Shown here piece after piece: positions 1,116 through 35,057 of a stretch of 64,000 nt of DNA; the stretch's first letter is position 1, and every line of letters begins with the position of its first letter. Location of the stretch: NCBI RefSeq assembly GCF_029760915.1, contig NZ_CP121685.1, forward strand, positions 1,214,001 to 1,278,000, written 5' to 3'. The position numbers and the translations under genes are program-made. The notes below the pieces were generated by a model. It had not been told where the DNA came from and made no database searches. It saw nothing but the letters and a program-made list of their open reading frames with translations. The stretch is from Olleya sp. YS (GTDB lineage: Bacteria; Bacteroidota; Bacteroidia; Flavobacteriales; Flavobacteriaceae).

Positions 1116-1847
1116 ATGAAGAAGAAATTAGAATCAGAATTAATGAGTATTGCGCACAGGATTCTAAAATTAGGAGGTAAAGATGATGTTAATAAAATGC
1201 ATGCTGAGGTTGCTGCATTATATGAAAAATTGACGGTTTTAAAATTTGCGAATGAAAATTTTGAAAGCGAGCTACCAACTATAGGGAACGACTCCTCATT
1301 TTTTGAGATGTTGGACTCGGCATTTAACAATAAAGTTAGTGACAATATTGAAGTTGATAATAAAACCTATATTAATTTGGATGATGTTGAAGAGGATGAT
1401 ATTATGGAGCCTGTAATGGAAAAAATTAAAGACATGGTGGCGCAAATGCCTAACGAAACCCATCAAGTAGATGCTTTAATTGAAGAAGTTATACCAAAGA
1501 AAGAATACCATAAAAACGATTTAGAAGAAATTACCGCTGGATTTGAAGAAACGCCAATTTTTGAACCAGTCATTAAGTCTGAAAACAATGAAAAAAAGTC
1601 GCTAAACGATAAATTAAAATTAGGCTTAACTATTGGTCTTAACGATAAATTAGCATTCATCAAGCACTTGTTTGATGGTAAAAATGAAGATTATGACCGT
1701 GTATTATCTCAACTAAACACCACTGCATCTTTAGCTGAGGCCACTAACCTAATTAGAAATGTGGTTAAACCAGATTATAATAATTGGGATGGAAAAGAAG
1801 ATTATGAAGCTAGATTTATGGAACTTATTGAAGCCAAATTTGATTAA
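1116..1847 (+). CDS. Conserved flavobacterial hypothetical protein
   Basis: A 243-residue soluble protein with no signal peptide or membrane helix. The N-terminal third is helical and charged (residues 1-50). The middle (about 70-170) is very acidic and probably disordered, with runs such as DDVEEDD. The C-terminal 85 residues (NDKLKLGLTIGLNDKLAFIKHLF onward) look like the conserved folded domain, with a conserved-looking NNWDGKEDYEARFMELIE ending. I recognise this arrangement from flavobacterial genomes but know no function. It is divergent from tdk, and its stop codon shares a TTAA palindrome with the stop of the convergent downstream gene, leaving no room for a terminator. Confidence 0.7.
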   Translation: MKKKLESELMSIAHRILKLGGKDDVNKMHAEVAALYEKLTVLKFANENFESELPTIGNDSSFFEMLDSAFNNKVSDNIEVDNKTYINLDDVEEDDIMEPVMEKIKDMVAQMPNETHQVDALIEEVIPKKEYHKNDLEEITAGFEETPIFEPVIKSENNEKKSLNDKLKLGLTIGLNDKLAFIKHLFDGKNEDYDRVLSQLNTTASLAEATNLIRNVVKPDYNNWDGKEDYEARFMELIEAKFD

Positions 1848-12130: not shown

Positions 12131-12179
12131 GATGTAAATATAATTAATTCCTGTGAATGCTATTGGTTGGCTGGTGCGT

Positions 12180-12263
12180 GCGTTAGCGATTAAAACGACA
12201 TCCTTTTTTGCGCGCTTATGCGCAAAAAAGATATAGTGTAAAGCGCGACCCTTGTGGTAACGC
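12180..12263 (+). repeat. Palindromic interspersed element, copy A
   Basis: An 84-bp element between lpxH and queD. It is bounded by short terminal inverted repeats, GCGTTA (12180-12185) and TAACGC (12258-12263), and has a central 10-bp perfect stem TTTTTTGCGC (12204-12213) / GCGCAAAAAA (12220-12229) with loop GCTTAT. Copy B at 34947-35032 matches it almost base for base on the opposite strand, including the blocks GCGTTAGCGAT, ACGACATCCTTTTTTG, GCGCAAAAAAGATATAGTG and AGCGCGACCCTTGT. No coding capacity is visible. A non-autonomous mobile element (MITE/REP type) or a structured transcript is the likely nature. Confidence 0.8.
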
Positions 12264-25290: not shown

Positions 25291-25899
25291 ATGGCTTTTG
25301 AATTACCAAAACTAAAATATGCGTATGATGCATTAGAACCACATATTGATGCACGTACAATGGAAATACACCACAGCAAACATCATAACGGTTACACAAC
25401 TAAATTAAACAACGCTATTGAAGGTACTGATTTAGAAGGAAAATCTATAGAAGATATTTTGACTAATTTAGATATGAAAAATATGGCTGTTAGAAATAAT
25501 GGAGGAGGATTTTACAACCACTCGTTATTTTGGGACGTTATGAATCCTGAAGGTAAAGGACGTTTGTCTGGAGATTTAAAGGATGCTATTGAAGCAGCCT
25601 ATGGGTCTGTTGACGCTTTTAAAGATGCATTTAGCAAAGCAGCAGCGACACAATTTGGATCAGGTTGGGCTTGGTTATGTGTCCATAAAGGCGGAAAGGT
25701 AGAAGTATGCTCTACACCAAATCAAGACAACCCATTAATGCCAGGTGTGACTTGTGGAGGGACTCCAATTTTAGGATTAGATGTTTGGGAACACGCTTAT
25801 TATTTAAATTATCAAAATAGACGTCCAGATTACATCGATGCTTTCTTCAATGTGATTAATTGGAACGAAGTAGAAAGACGTTATGCAGAAGCTAAATAA
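25291..25899 (+). CDS. sodB: Superoxide dismutase (Fe/Mn family)
   Basis: Dismutates superoxide to peroxide and oxygen; cytoplasmic, 202 residues. Metal ligands are visible in order: His in [12 protein letters not shown] (about residue 27), His in [11 protein letters not shown], and Asp and His in [18 protein letters not shown]. The [15 protein letters not shown] strand is typical of the family. Fe versus Mn versus cambialistic cannot be decided by eye; the start of the protein ([20 protein letters not shown]) is characteristic. It has its own promoter and a strong terminator 25 bp after the stop. Confidence 0.95.
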
Positions 25900-25923: not shown

Positions 25924-25954
25924 AAGCAGGCTTTTTAAAGTCTGCTTTTTTTTT
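25924..25954 (+). terminator. Intrinsic terminator of sodB
   Basis: AAGCAGGCTTT (25924-25934) pairs with AAAGTCTGCTT (25937-25947) apart from one G-U wobble, followed by an unbroken T-run on the plus strand. Confidence 0.85.
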
Positions 25955-25989: not shown

Positions 25990-26064
25990 AATAAAAAAGG
26001 AGAACGAGAGTTCTCCTTTTTTGCCCCAAATCTACCATGAACTTAACCTACTTATGTTATGGTA
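25990..26064 (-). ncRNA. Candidate small RNA with own promoter and terminator
   Basis: A compact unit in the 270-bp gap between sodB and purF, read on the minus strand. A perfect -7 box TATATTTG (26069-26076) places the expected start near 26062-26064. The RNA would begin with a hairpin: UACCAU pairs with AUGGUA (26059-26064 with 26033-26038), extended by AAC/GUU with one bulged C, around a 13-nt loop. A single-stranded GAUUUGGGGC segment follows, then a perfect 12-bp terminator stem (25993-26004 / 26011-26022) with a U-run. No start codon with a useful frame is present. A purF 3'-UTR processing product is the alternative: the purF stop is about 105 nt upstream of the predicted start. Confidence 0.5.
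25993..26022 (-). terminator. Intrinsic terminator (candidate sRNA and/or purF)
   Basis: AAAAAAGGAGAA and TTCTCCTTTTTT are perfect 12-bp arms around the loop CGAGAG (CUCUCG on the minus strand). They would terminate minus-strand transcripts from purF or from the candidate sRNA, and perhaps readthrough from sodB on the plus strand. Confidence 0.85.
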
Positions 26065-26169
26065 AGCTCAAATATAACGACATTTAAATTGAATTATTAC
26101 ATATTATAGTTAAAAAGTAAAAATATTCGGTTAAATGATGTGTGACGAGAAAAAACTTACCAACTAGAA

Positions 26170-28068
26170 TTAGTAAGCACGTTCTTTATTGCCTTCATAA
26201 AAATTAATAAATGCTCTATTTACCACTCTATTACCTCCAACTGTTGGATAGTTACCAGTAAAATACCAATCTCCTAAATGATCTGGACACGCTTTATGTA
26301 AATGGTCTACAGGTTGAAAAATGATTTCTACCTTAGCATTGACAGAATCGTCAGTTAACAAGCTTGATATTTTTGCCGAAATTTGTTCTGGTGTAAACTG
26401 GTCGTAGATTTCTTTTACAAAATTGGTAACGTCTTTATCCTCTAAATCTTCTTGCGCTTTACACTTTTTGTAAACCTCTTCTACTAAATTGTATTTGTTG
26501 TTTTCCTTTAGTAACTCTAAAGCTGCATTAAAAGCAACTAAAGTTTCTAGATTAGCCATATCAATTCCATAGCAATCTGGATAACGTATTTGTGGCGCAG
26601 AGGAGACAACTACTATCTTTTTAGGATGTAATCTGTCCATCATTTTTATAATACTCTTTTTTAAAGTGGTACCACGCACAATACTATCGTCAATTATAAC
26701 CAAATTGTCTGTGGGCTTTATTACTCCGTAAGTTACATCATAAACGTGCGCAACCAAATCGTCTCGACTAGAATCTTCAGTTATAAAAGTTCTTAGCTTA
26801 ACATCTTTGATGGCTATTTTTTCTATTCTTGGTCTTTCTTTTAAAATAGAAGTGACATTTTCTGCAGAGAGCTTACCATTACCATCTAATATGGCTTGAG
26901 TTTTCTTTTGGTTTAAGTGTTCTTCAACCGTTTCAATCATCCCATAAAAAGAAGTTTCAGCTGTATTTGGTATGTATGAAAACACTGTGTTTTCGGTGTC
27001 ACCTTTTATAGCCTTCAATACTTGAGGCATTAATAAACGACCAAGCATTTTTCGTTCTTGATAGATTTCGGCATCACTTCCTCTAGAAAAATAAATACGT
27101 TCAAAACTACAAGATTTACGCTCTAAAGGTTCTAATATTTTTTTAATTGAAGTCTCGCCAGATTTTTTAGTAATAATGGCGTGTCCAGGACTTAATTCTT
27201 TAACATCATCAAATTCTACATTAAATACTGTTTGAATCACTGGACGCTCTGAAGCAACCACAACAATTTCGTCATCTTTATAATAGTAAGCTGGACGTAT
27301 TCCTGCTGGATCACGCAATACAAAAGAATCTCCATGACCTAATAAACCAGCCATAGCGTATCCACCATCCCAATTTTTTGCTGCACGCTTTAAGATTTTA
27401 TGAATTTTTATACGCTCTGCAATTAAAGGAGAACATTCGTGCTTATCATAGCCTTCTTTTTTTAAGTCTCTATAAATTTTGCTTACAGCATCATCTAAAA
27501 AATGACCAATTTTTTCCATGATTGTAATTGTATCTGTATATTCTTTTGGATGTTGACCAAGTTCTACCAGATTTTTAAATAGCTCTTTAACATTAGTCAT
27601 ATTAAAGTTTCCAGCTAGAATTAAATTACGATGTTGCCAATTATTTTGTCTTAAAAAGGGATGTACACTTTCTACGCTGTTTTTACCAAACGTACCATAT
27701 CTAACATGTCCTAAAAGGACTTCTCCTATATATGGTATGTGTTTTTTCTGTAACGCAACATTATCTTGATATTCTGGATGCTCTGTTAACTCTTTATTAA
27801 CACGTTCATTAATTTGAGCAAAAATATCTTGTATGGGTTGTTGTGCGATAGAGCGTACGCGACTAATATAACGTTCGCCAGGTTTAGTGTCTAATTTGAT
27901 GCTTGCAAAACCAGCACCATCTTGACCACGATTGTGCTGCTTTTCCATCATTAAATACATTTTATTAACTCCGTAAAATGCACTTCCATATTTTTTCTTG
28001 TAAAATTCTAAAGGCTTAAGGAGTCTAATTTGTGCAATTCCGCACTCGTGTTTTAAAGCATCACTCAT
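26170..28068 (-). CDS. purF: Amidophosphoribosyltransferase, long Bacteroidota form
   Basis: Catalyses the first step of purine synthesis, transferring ammonia from glutamine to PRPP. Cys9 (MSDALKHECGIAQ) would become the N-terminal nucleophile of the class II glutaminase domain after removal of a short propeptide; HNRGQDGAGFAS, HVRYGTFG and the NGxx-type loop LAGNFNMTN follow. The PRPP-binding loop VIIDDSIVRGTTLKKS is in the second half. At 632 residues it is about 125 longer than the E. coli enzyme: extra segments lie in the glutaminase domain and at the C terminus (HKACPDHLGDWYFTGNYPTVGG). A consensus promoter precedes it, and the purN-rnhA-kinase genes lie upstream on the same strand. Confidence 0.88.
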   Translation of the reverse strand: MSDALKHECGIAQIRLLKPLEFYKKKYGSAFYGVNKMYLMMEKQHNRGQDGAGFASIKLDTKPGERYISRVRSIAQQPIQDIFAQINERVNKELTEHPEYQDNVALQKKHIPYIGEVLLGHVRYGTFGKNSVESVHPFLRQNNWQHRNLILAGNFNMTNVKELFKNLVELGQHPKEYTDTITIMEKIGHFLDDAVSKIYRDLKKEGYDKHECSPLIAERIKIHKILKRAAKNWDGGYAMAGLLGHGDSFVLRDPAGIRPAYYYKDDEIVVVASERPVIQTVFNVEFDDVKELSPGHAIITKKSGETSIKKILEPLERKSCSFERIYFSRGSDAEIYQERKMLGRLLMPQVLKAIKGDTENTVFSYIPNTAETSFYGMIETVEEHLNQKKTQAILDGNGKLSAENVTSILKERPRIEKIAIKDVKLRTFITEDSSRDDLVAHVYDVTYGVIKPTDNLVIIDDSIVRGTTLKKSIIKMMDRLHPKKIVVVSSAPQIRYPDCYGIDMANLETLVAFNAALELLKENNKYNLVEEVYKKCKAQEDLEDKDVTNFVKEIYDQFTPEQISAKISSLLTDDSVNAKVEIIFQPVDHLHKACPDHLGDWYFTGNYPTVGGNRVVNRAFINFYEGNKERAY

Positions 28069-34946: not shown

Positions 34947-35032
34947 GCGTTACAACAAGGGTCGCGCTATTCACTATATCTTTTTTGCGCATAAGCGCGC
35001 ACAAAAAAGGATGTCGTTTTTATCGCTAACGC
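34947..35032 (-). repeat. Palindromic interspersed element, copy B
   Basis: An 86-bp copy of the element found at 12180-12263, on the opposite strand. It is bounded by GCGTTA (34947-34952) and TAACGC (35027-35032). The central stem is TTTTTTGCGC (34981-34990) with GCGC..AAAAAA, interrupted by two extra bases (AC) compared with copy A; a few other substitutions separate the copies. It lies between the convergent pyk and dinB genes, before their shared terminator. Confidence 0.8.
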
Positions 35033-35057
35033 TTAACTAATGATAGTATTAATAATT

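Follow-up and report, generated by a model that had tools for sequence, protein, structure and literature searches.

A conserved, often tandem predicted small RNA unit between purF and sodB in Flavobacteriaceae

Introduction

The gap between two convergent genes of Olleya sp. YS, which we take to be purF and sodB, raises a simple question: does it encode a small RNA in its own right, or only the end of the purF transcript? The window analysed here, a 64,000-nt stretch of contig NZ_CP121685.1, had been read once before from its letters alone, and that reading (the original prediction) proposed a stand-alone small RNA on the minus strand with its own promoter and terminator. We know of no description of the regulon that the conserved promoter element reported below indicates.

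With its near-identical sequence and its constant locus in a large part of the family, in one to seven copies, a small RNA of this kind is a fixed and easily deleted entry point into post-transcriptional regulation, a poorly mapped field in the Flavobacteriaceae, which have been called understudied (PMC9723704). Here, we describe the anatomy, conservation, promoter and candidate targets of the unit, together with a covariance model (R1) that can be used for annotating it.

Results

Anatomy of the unit

On the minus strand of the purF-sodB gap, sequence and predicted fold place a -7 box, a 5' hairpin, a linker and a terminator in this order between positions 26076 and 25993 (Table 1). The -7 box TATATTTG lies where the original prediction had it, and the 9-bp hairpin with one bulge that it described is confirmed by both sequence and fold, provided that an outer U-A pair is counted, which extends the hairpin to 26064-26033; the bulged base is a C, and three further inner pairs can be added. 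The segment announced as single-stranded is the linker GAUUUGGGGC. The intrinsic terminator (AAAAAAGGAGAAC-UCUC-GUUCUCCUUUUUU) is present too, with a stem of 13 bp instead of the 12 first given, and this stem, together with its A and T tracts, can also be read as a plus-strand terminator.

The unit folds at -24.4 kcal/mol (z -3.42), a value equalled by 2 of 200 shuffled sequences, and in the minimum-energy fold GCU 5' of the hairpin is also paired with GGC at the linker end. As the terminator supplies much of this energy, the fold taken alone says little; it is the conservation of the unit in relatives that excludes a chance arrangement, an origin which the original prediction had already found hard to accept.

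Table 1. Positions of the unit, its promoter elements and its neighbours in the window
Feature	Position	Strand	Basis
Predicted small RNA, ~71 nt	25993..26063	-	Anatomy, conservation; covariance model R1, 102 bits
Predicted RNA ends	5' near 26063; 3' at T run (T run ends 25993)	-	
-7 box TATATTTG	26069..26076	-	Sequence; TAnnTT in relatives; column conservation
5' hairpin ACCAUAACAUAAGUAGGUUAAGUUCAUGGU	26034..26063	-	Fold, alignments
Single-stranded linker GAUUUGGGGC, candidate pairing segment	26023..26032	-	Fold, alignment
Intrinsic terminator, 13-bp stem + T6	25993..26022	-	Sequence, fold, covariation
Promoter-proximal element ACTTTTTAACTATAATAT, predicted activator site beside the -33 region	26101..26118	-	42 nt before the -7 box
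Upstream direct-repeat copy (TTTAACC core)	26122..26139	-	21 bp from the next copy; sequence
purF, upstream neighbour	26170..28068	-	Open reading frame; synteny
sodB, convergent neighbour	25291..25899	+	Open reading frame; synteny
Separate terminator-like hairpin 3' of sodB, GCAGGCUUUUUAAAGUCUGC + T run	25925..25954	+	Sequence

Conservation, copy number and neighbourhood

Searched with a 101-nt query, all ten genomes of the genus, the host being one of them, have the same locus at 91-100% identity, with both flanks diverging. Beyond the genus, a fixed sequence pattern placed the unit downstream of purF in 79 of 80 purF loci, these being the best 80 of a longer match list. Two copies were found in 64 of them, one in 11, three in 4 and none in 1; the two or three units of the 68 multicopy loci stand in tandem, 140-329 bp apart (median 226). 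The one locus without a unit (L101) gave none with the covariance model either. These copy counts are lower bounds, since a locus with a single unit by the pattern (L052) has a weak second one by the model, at 35.2 bits. The 151 parsed units correspond to 104 distinct sequences.

The covariance search proposed in the original prediction was carried out with R1, built on an alignment of 29 sequences (A2). At E <= 0.001, R1 matched 256 of 299 sampled Flavobacteriaceae genomes, host included; both stems, whose lack of conservation in other Flavobacteriaceae was to count against the original prediction, are found in the aligned members and are held in R1. In an order-wide sample, 62 of 296 genomes matched, 61 of them Flavobacteriaceae plus one weak match (34.7 bits) outside the family, and a class-wide sample of 197 genomes gave five that matched, every one from the family; these large-sample searches used stricter filters and may miss weak members. 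In a set of 40 Flavobacteriaceae genomes, most of them chosen for their low scores, 39 matched at E 0.01, two of them weakly (34 bits), and one carries seven tandem copies, the maximum in this set. In the host, only one full copy is present, at 102 bits; the match that follows it in score (31.9 bits) looks like a chance terminator. In one genus of the order sample (g112), which is probably Flavobacterium, 32 genomes with the unit are among the matches listed and at least two genomes are without it.

Several near-identical units per genome, a mark of sibling small RNAs, are thus found in relatives, the host having one full copy, and judging by sequence each copy appears to come with a second such mark, a promoter and an intrinsic terminator of its own.

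The order purF-unit-sodB is kept in relatives. In 59 loci chosen for strong model matches (L129-L187), purF was found in 57 and purF or sodB in all 59 fetched stretches, and a uvrD-like helicase gene often comes next after sodB. Where strands were compared, purF lies upstream on the same strand as the unit, and sodB is convergent.

Diverged relatives of the unit were seen in two further settings. One genome (G090) has, besides its purF units, a diverged set on another contig (G090:C13; L192 817-1720, minus strand), whose best three members score 52, 39 and 35 bits and are accompanied by weaker ones. In five genomes of the genus (L019-L023; in L022 at ~1440-1620, plus strand, G000:C1:1006660), the intergenic region downstream of an apparent oligopeptide-type ABC transporter gene holds the 3' arm and linker in diverged form; in most of these loci GGTTAAGT..TGGTARAYTTGG recurs in degenerate form two or three times, the 5' arm and terminator normally found with it being absent.

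Covariation and variability

Compensatory changes, which the original prediction expected in the stems, were found in the terminator stem and were absent from the 5' hairpin in both alignments used. In A2, six of seven terminator pairs show changes on both sides, and none of 500 shuffles reached the observed value in any of five measures. In A3, an alignment fitted to the structure, all seven pairs do so, with two of the five summary measures not above shuffles. A further alignment (A4) contains spurious antisense matches, and its covariation table was excluded from the evidence. As for the first hairpin, of its 11 pairs 8 are constant throughout A2 and 6 throughout A3. Neither alignment has a double change, the variation being confined to G-U-type exchanges and a small number of unpaired cells; the 5' hairpin varies too little for a covariation test. 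Nevertheless, all 41 distinct variants extracted with a loose pattern, including those with insertions in the 5' arm, are predicted to fold as a hairpin joining both arms, although the inner pairs differ and some of the extracted stretches begin at an upstream CCA.

Variation is uneven along the unit. The 217 distinct parsed units comprise 23 variants of the 5' arm, 10 of the 3' arm and 4 of the linker, the counts on the 3' side being favoured by the parsing pattern, which fixes GTAGG and TGGT. Some 30 nt across loop, arm and linker hardly vary, hairpin and linker are better conserved than the terminator stem, and the linker of 71 of the 217 units has one extra A. From this distribution we infer that the 3' arm and the linker form the working segment.

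Promoter and direct-repeat element

When 298 units were aligned on CCAUAAC, a -7 box of the form TAnnTT(T/G)G appeared at -13 to -6, and 294 of them have TAnnTT at this place or only a few bases away. In 273 units the -7 box is preceded, at a distance of 41 or 42 nt, by an 18-nt element with the consensus GCATTTTATCTAAAAAAT, and 262 have a second copy 20 bp further upstream, with a mean score of 7.2 versus -7.6 in shuffles. The g112 units read CATTAGTAGG, were missed by the parsing pattern and did not enter the matrix, so that they could serve as a held-out set: in all 35 distinct sequences TAnnTT is present, with the element 41 nt before it and the repeat 20 bp further up. Mean information per column rises from 0.34 bits at -100..-14 to 1.06 for the -7 box and 1.91 over the first 15 nt. 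The promoter-proximal element of the host scores 11.9, and 20.6 together with the -7 box.

The absence of a TTG at -33, noted in the original prediction, is real, there being none between the -7 box and 26118. Phased repeats beside the -33 region resemble an activator-dependent promoter, and a promoter of this kind would explain the missing TTG. Judged by spacing rules, a LytTR-type regulator is one candidate that may bind the repeats. In the tandem pairs among the rows listed (e.g. L050, L061, L086), the -7 box of the first unit is often TACATTGG or TAAATTGG and that of the second TATATTTG; given these differing boxes, the two copies may use different promoter classes.

Element and -7 box together gave 27 sites above threshold in 864 kb of host sequence, against 12 in the reversed sequence. 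A fixed DNA pattern for the repeats gave 16 matches in ten genomes versus 24 for its control, a result that says little, as the pattern missed known sites. Among the sampled host genes with an element score of at least 8, six of eight have a signal-peptide-like start, compared with 31% of 705 genes (p 0.014, by a heuristic applied post hoc). Individual host genes with the element 40-41 nt before TAnnTT include those in L366, L372 and L381 (minus strand) and L382 and L371 (plus strand); a signal-peptide-like start was recognised by eye in four of them, a hint of a secreted-protein regulon.

Comparison with known RNA families

No Rfam family reaches its cut-off at the unit, and the RNA is absent from the Rfam copy searched. 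FopS (RF04319) gave no match at cut-off in the window or in eight loci, six of them holding units; with relaxed thresholds it scored 19.8 bits, versus the 56 needed, on the opposite strand. The best sub-threshold match, BTnc231 (RF04180), was rejected at 30.4 bits versus 80.4, with many pairs broken or missing. Flavo-1 (RF01705) matches elsewhere in the window and has none at the unit. As to a phage origin or spread, AGTAGGTTAAGTTYATGGTA had no exact match in a viral collection, a search confined to that exact pattern. A literature search at the level of listings and abstract openings, the papers cited here apart, returned no paper describing this RNA.

Candidate targets

Complements of the linker were sought in 714 host leaders drawn from 864 kb (40 stretches plus the 64-kb window). 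The best duplex of all, at -19.7 kcal/mol, was with the leader of a gene for a leucine-rich repeat (LRR) protein (Pfam LRR match), which has orthologs in the ten genomes of the genus. In nine of the ten, its promoter has the element of the small RNA exactly 41 nt before TAnnTT, and the gene is among the six of 705 sampled host genes whose arrangement of element and -7 box scores at least 10. The strong 11-nt complement is present in two of the ten genomes (host and G001); the LRR leaders of the other eight form duplexes ranking at 0.024-0.408 among host leaders. A second leader, AUUGACCCCAAAUCAAU, whose duplex ranks at 0.004, carries the complement in both G000 and G001 and precedes a protein with a signal-peptide-like start and no Pfam match; in the host, elements lie 99 and 78 nt before its ATG, with scores of 12.5 and 3.3. 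In a third candidate, the start codon abuts CCCCAAATC in five genomes (L254, L257, L266, L319, L320), and the product, scanned in L320, gave a glycosyltransferase-2 match below cut-off.

Across ten genomes, the linker complement CCCCAAATC..ATG occurs in 74 rows, 20 of which are the small RNA locus, versus 25 for the reversed pattern; the portion of these sites inspected singly yielded the three candidates above and the intergenic element described below. CCCCAAA before ATG occurs in 87 host rows, of which a minority were inspected singly, versus 35 for the control. However, CCCCAAA within the coding sequence of sampled genes was antisense in 51 cases and sense in 5, so that counts of this type are inflated by antisense coding sites, and in the leaders of 722 genes it was not enriched (rank 22 of 35 permutations). 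A simple k-mer test of the leaders gave no enrichment, and the AUG-containing arm complement ACCATGAANTTAANC, allowing one mismatch, was not enriched in the ten genomes either, with 90 matches, 10 of them at the small RNA locus itself, versus 124 for the reversed pattern. Two ideas were dropped: a recurrent site CCCCAAATCAT(A/G)TG turned out to be antisense within a coding frame, and CCCAAA did not favour hairpin loops in leaders (stem of at least 4 in 4/12 versus 91/487 elsewhere; stem of at least 5 in 0/12). The element-bearing genes as a group did not pair significantly better (p 0.12 and 0.23). Among the 15 best-pairing leaders, two belong to genes with a signal-peptide-like start, versus 31% of all 705, and four have an element score of at least 2, versus 4.8% of genes, the latter being a post hoc comparison. 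This sequence-based evidence on targets is only suggestive, a lead and not a result.

An intergenic element of another kind was noted around CCCCAAATCTA, between genes that by eye encode an apparent sigma factor and ABC transporter (L253, L256, L312, L313, L314). It reads GUUGG/GUUAG-CCCCAAAU-CUAAC, with CUAGC as the last part in L256, and a terminator-like hairpin comes after it; in all five loci read it contains GCCCCAAATCTA, 12 nt complementary to the small RNA. It is possible that this is an anti-small RNA, or else a -7 box on the other strand.

Discussion

We are highly confident that the unit is a genuine RNA gene, shared by a large part of the Flavobacteriaceae. Its conservation, its tandem copies and the TAnnTT box that accompanies it support, as far as sequence can tell, the stand-alone small RNA with its own promoter and terminator that had been proposed. 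Regarding its function, we lean towards an independently transcribed, multicopy ("sibling") small RNA that regulates by base pairing. An activator bound to direct repeats phased at 20-21 bp would help RNA polymerase at a TAnnTTTG promoter, and an RNA of ~71 nt would start at the first hairpin and end at its own terminator. The segment formed by the 3' arm and the G-rich linker, GUAGGUUAAGUUYAUGGUA(A)GAUUUGGGG, which hardly varies, would then pair with C-rich mRNA leaders near the start codon and change translation, most likely by repressing it. The 5' arm, predicted to fold over the 3' arm, probably stabilises the 5' end or gates the pairing. It is tempting to speculate, with the tentativeness due to an idea that could well prove wrong, that these parts form a feed-forward circuit, in which one activator on the 20-21-bp repeats drives both the tandem small RNAs and genes for secreted surface proteins, some of the same mRNAs have C-rich leaders (CCCCAAAUC) with which the linker GAUUUGGGG pairs just before the start codon, and the copy number of the small RNA sets the dose of surface protein.

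Other readings have to be weighed against the base-pairing one. The conserved RNA might mainly bind a protein through its 3' arm and linker, as a ligand of the RRM type or as a decoy or sponge, for which CsrB is the model. A near-invariant stretch of ~30 nt is longer than the usual seed, tandem copies would raise the dose of such a ligand, and partial GGUUAAGU..UGGUARAYUUGG copies are repeated in one further intergenic region of the genome; moreover, the RRM protein RbpB is described as binding the multicopy FopS small RNAs in Bacteroides (PMC11697453). Yet the linker finds good complements in a few leaders, one of which belongs to a gene sharing the promoter element, and on balance we consider a mainly protein-binding role unlikely. 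More improbable is that the unit is the purF 3' UTR, its terminator ending the purF mRNA and a processed tail giving rise to the small RNA, which the original prediction had named as its main alternative. From the purF stop (26170) down to the unit, inspection by eye showed no other terminator-like hairpin, and the first unit follows purF in most loci compared. Nonetheless, one terminator suffices for a 3' UTR, while two or three units are present in 68 of the 80 loci and up to seven elsewhere. The multiple units per locus and their own TAnnTT boxes weaken this reading (294 of 298 units have the box and 273 the element at 41 or 42 nt), and conservation is low ahead of the units, at 0.34 bits per column over -100..-14. 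Even so, the purF transcript may end at the same terminator as the small RNA.

Two further possibilities seem to us scarcely credible. One, that only a bidirectional purF/sodB terminator matters and the rest is chance, would fit a stem that reads as a terminator on both strands, but it is at odds with the better conservation of hairpin and linker. The other, very remote as well, is that the unit encodes a short peptide, AUG GUA GAU UUG GGG ..., and here the original claim of no open frame needs amending: an AUG does open a frame inside the RNA, and AUG GUA GAU UUG GGG CAA... runs through it with no stop before the terminator in the window, itself awkward for a peptide gene. What makes coding unlikely is the extra A of the linker, which shifts the frame while the DNA otherwise stays the same, the two linker classes, one base apart, reading MVDLGQ.. 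and MVRFGA...

As a sibling base-pairing RNA, the unit would work like the csRNAs of Streptococcus and the FopS RNAs of Bacteroides, and by this analogy it may pair near start codons. The FopS RNAs (PMC11697453) are multicopy paralogues of ~65-70 nt with a sigma-A-type promoter and an intrinsic terminator, classed as intergenic (9), antisense (4) or 3'-UTR (1), that pair near the start codons of surface-protein mRNAs. The unit shares with them the phylum, a similar size, multiple copies, a terminator and a promoter of its own, while pairing at start codons, shown for FopS, would be an extrapolation here; they differ in that FopS has a single-stranded 5' seed stretch and no 5' hairpin, whereas in the unit a 5' hairpin is predicted before the linker. 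The csRNAs of the CiaRH regulon are siblings of 87-151 nt with segments able to pair with ribosome-binding sites and AUG (PMC4507080, PMC3091779). Control of sibling small RNAs as a set by one regulator is a csRNA feature at which the shared repeat element of the units may hint for them too, although the phylum is another and the repeats of the unit are spaced 20-21 bp, so that a likeness is meant without any claim of homology.

Closer relatives of the host also have small RNAs for comparison. Candidate small RNAs without Rfam matches are mentioned for F. columnare (PMC5395568), and some of the Rfp1-89 RNAs of Flavobacterium psychrophilum are described as conserved across species (PMC9723704). 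The unit may be one of these Rfp RNAs; in Rfp18, by description, the third stem-loop is the pairing region (PMC9723704), a difference from the unit within an otherwise shared class of flavobacterial small RNAs. Flavo-1 is likewise a flavobacterial non-coding element, unlike the unit in that the latter does not match its model, and the same report found no hint of what Flavo-1 does (PMC9723704). Its host genome matches number 14, 12 of them over the cut-off, and the window itself holds two Flavo-1 RNAs, at 12165-12254 (plus strand, 53.7 bits) and 34956-35042 (minus strand, 56 bits).
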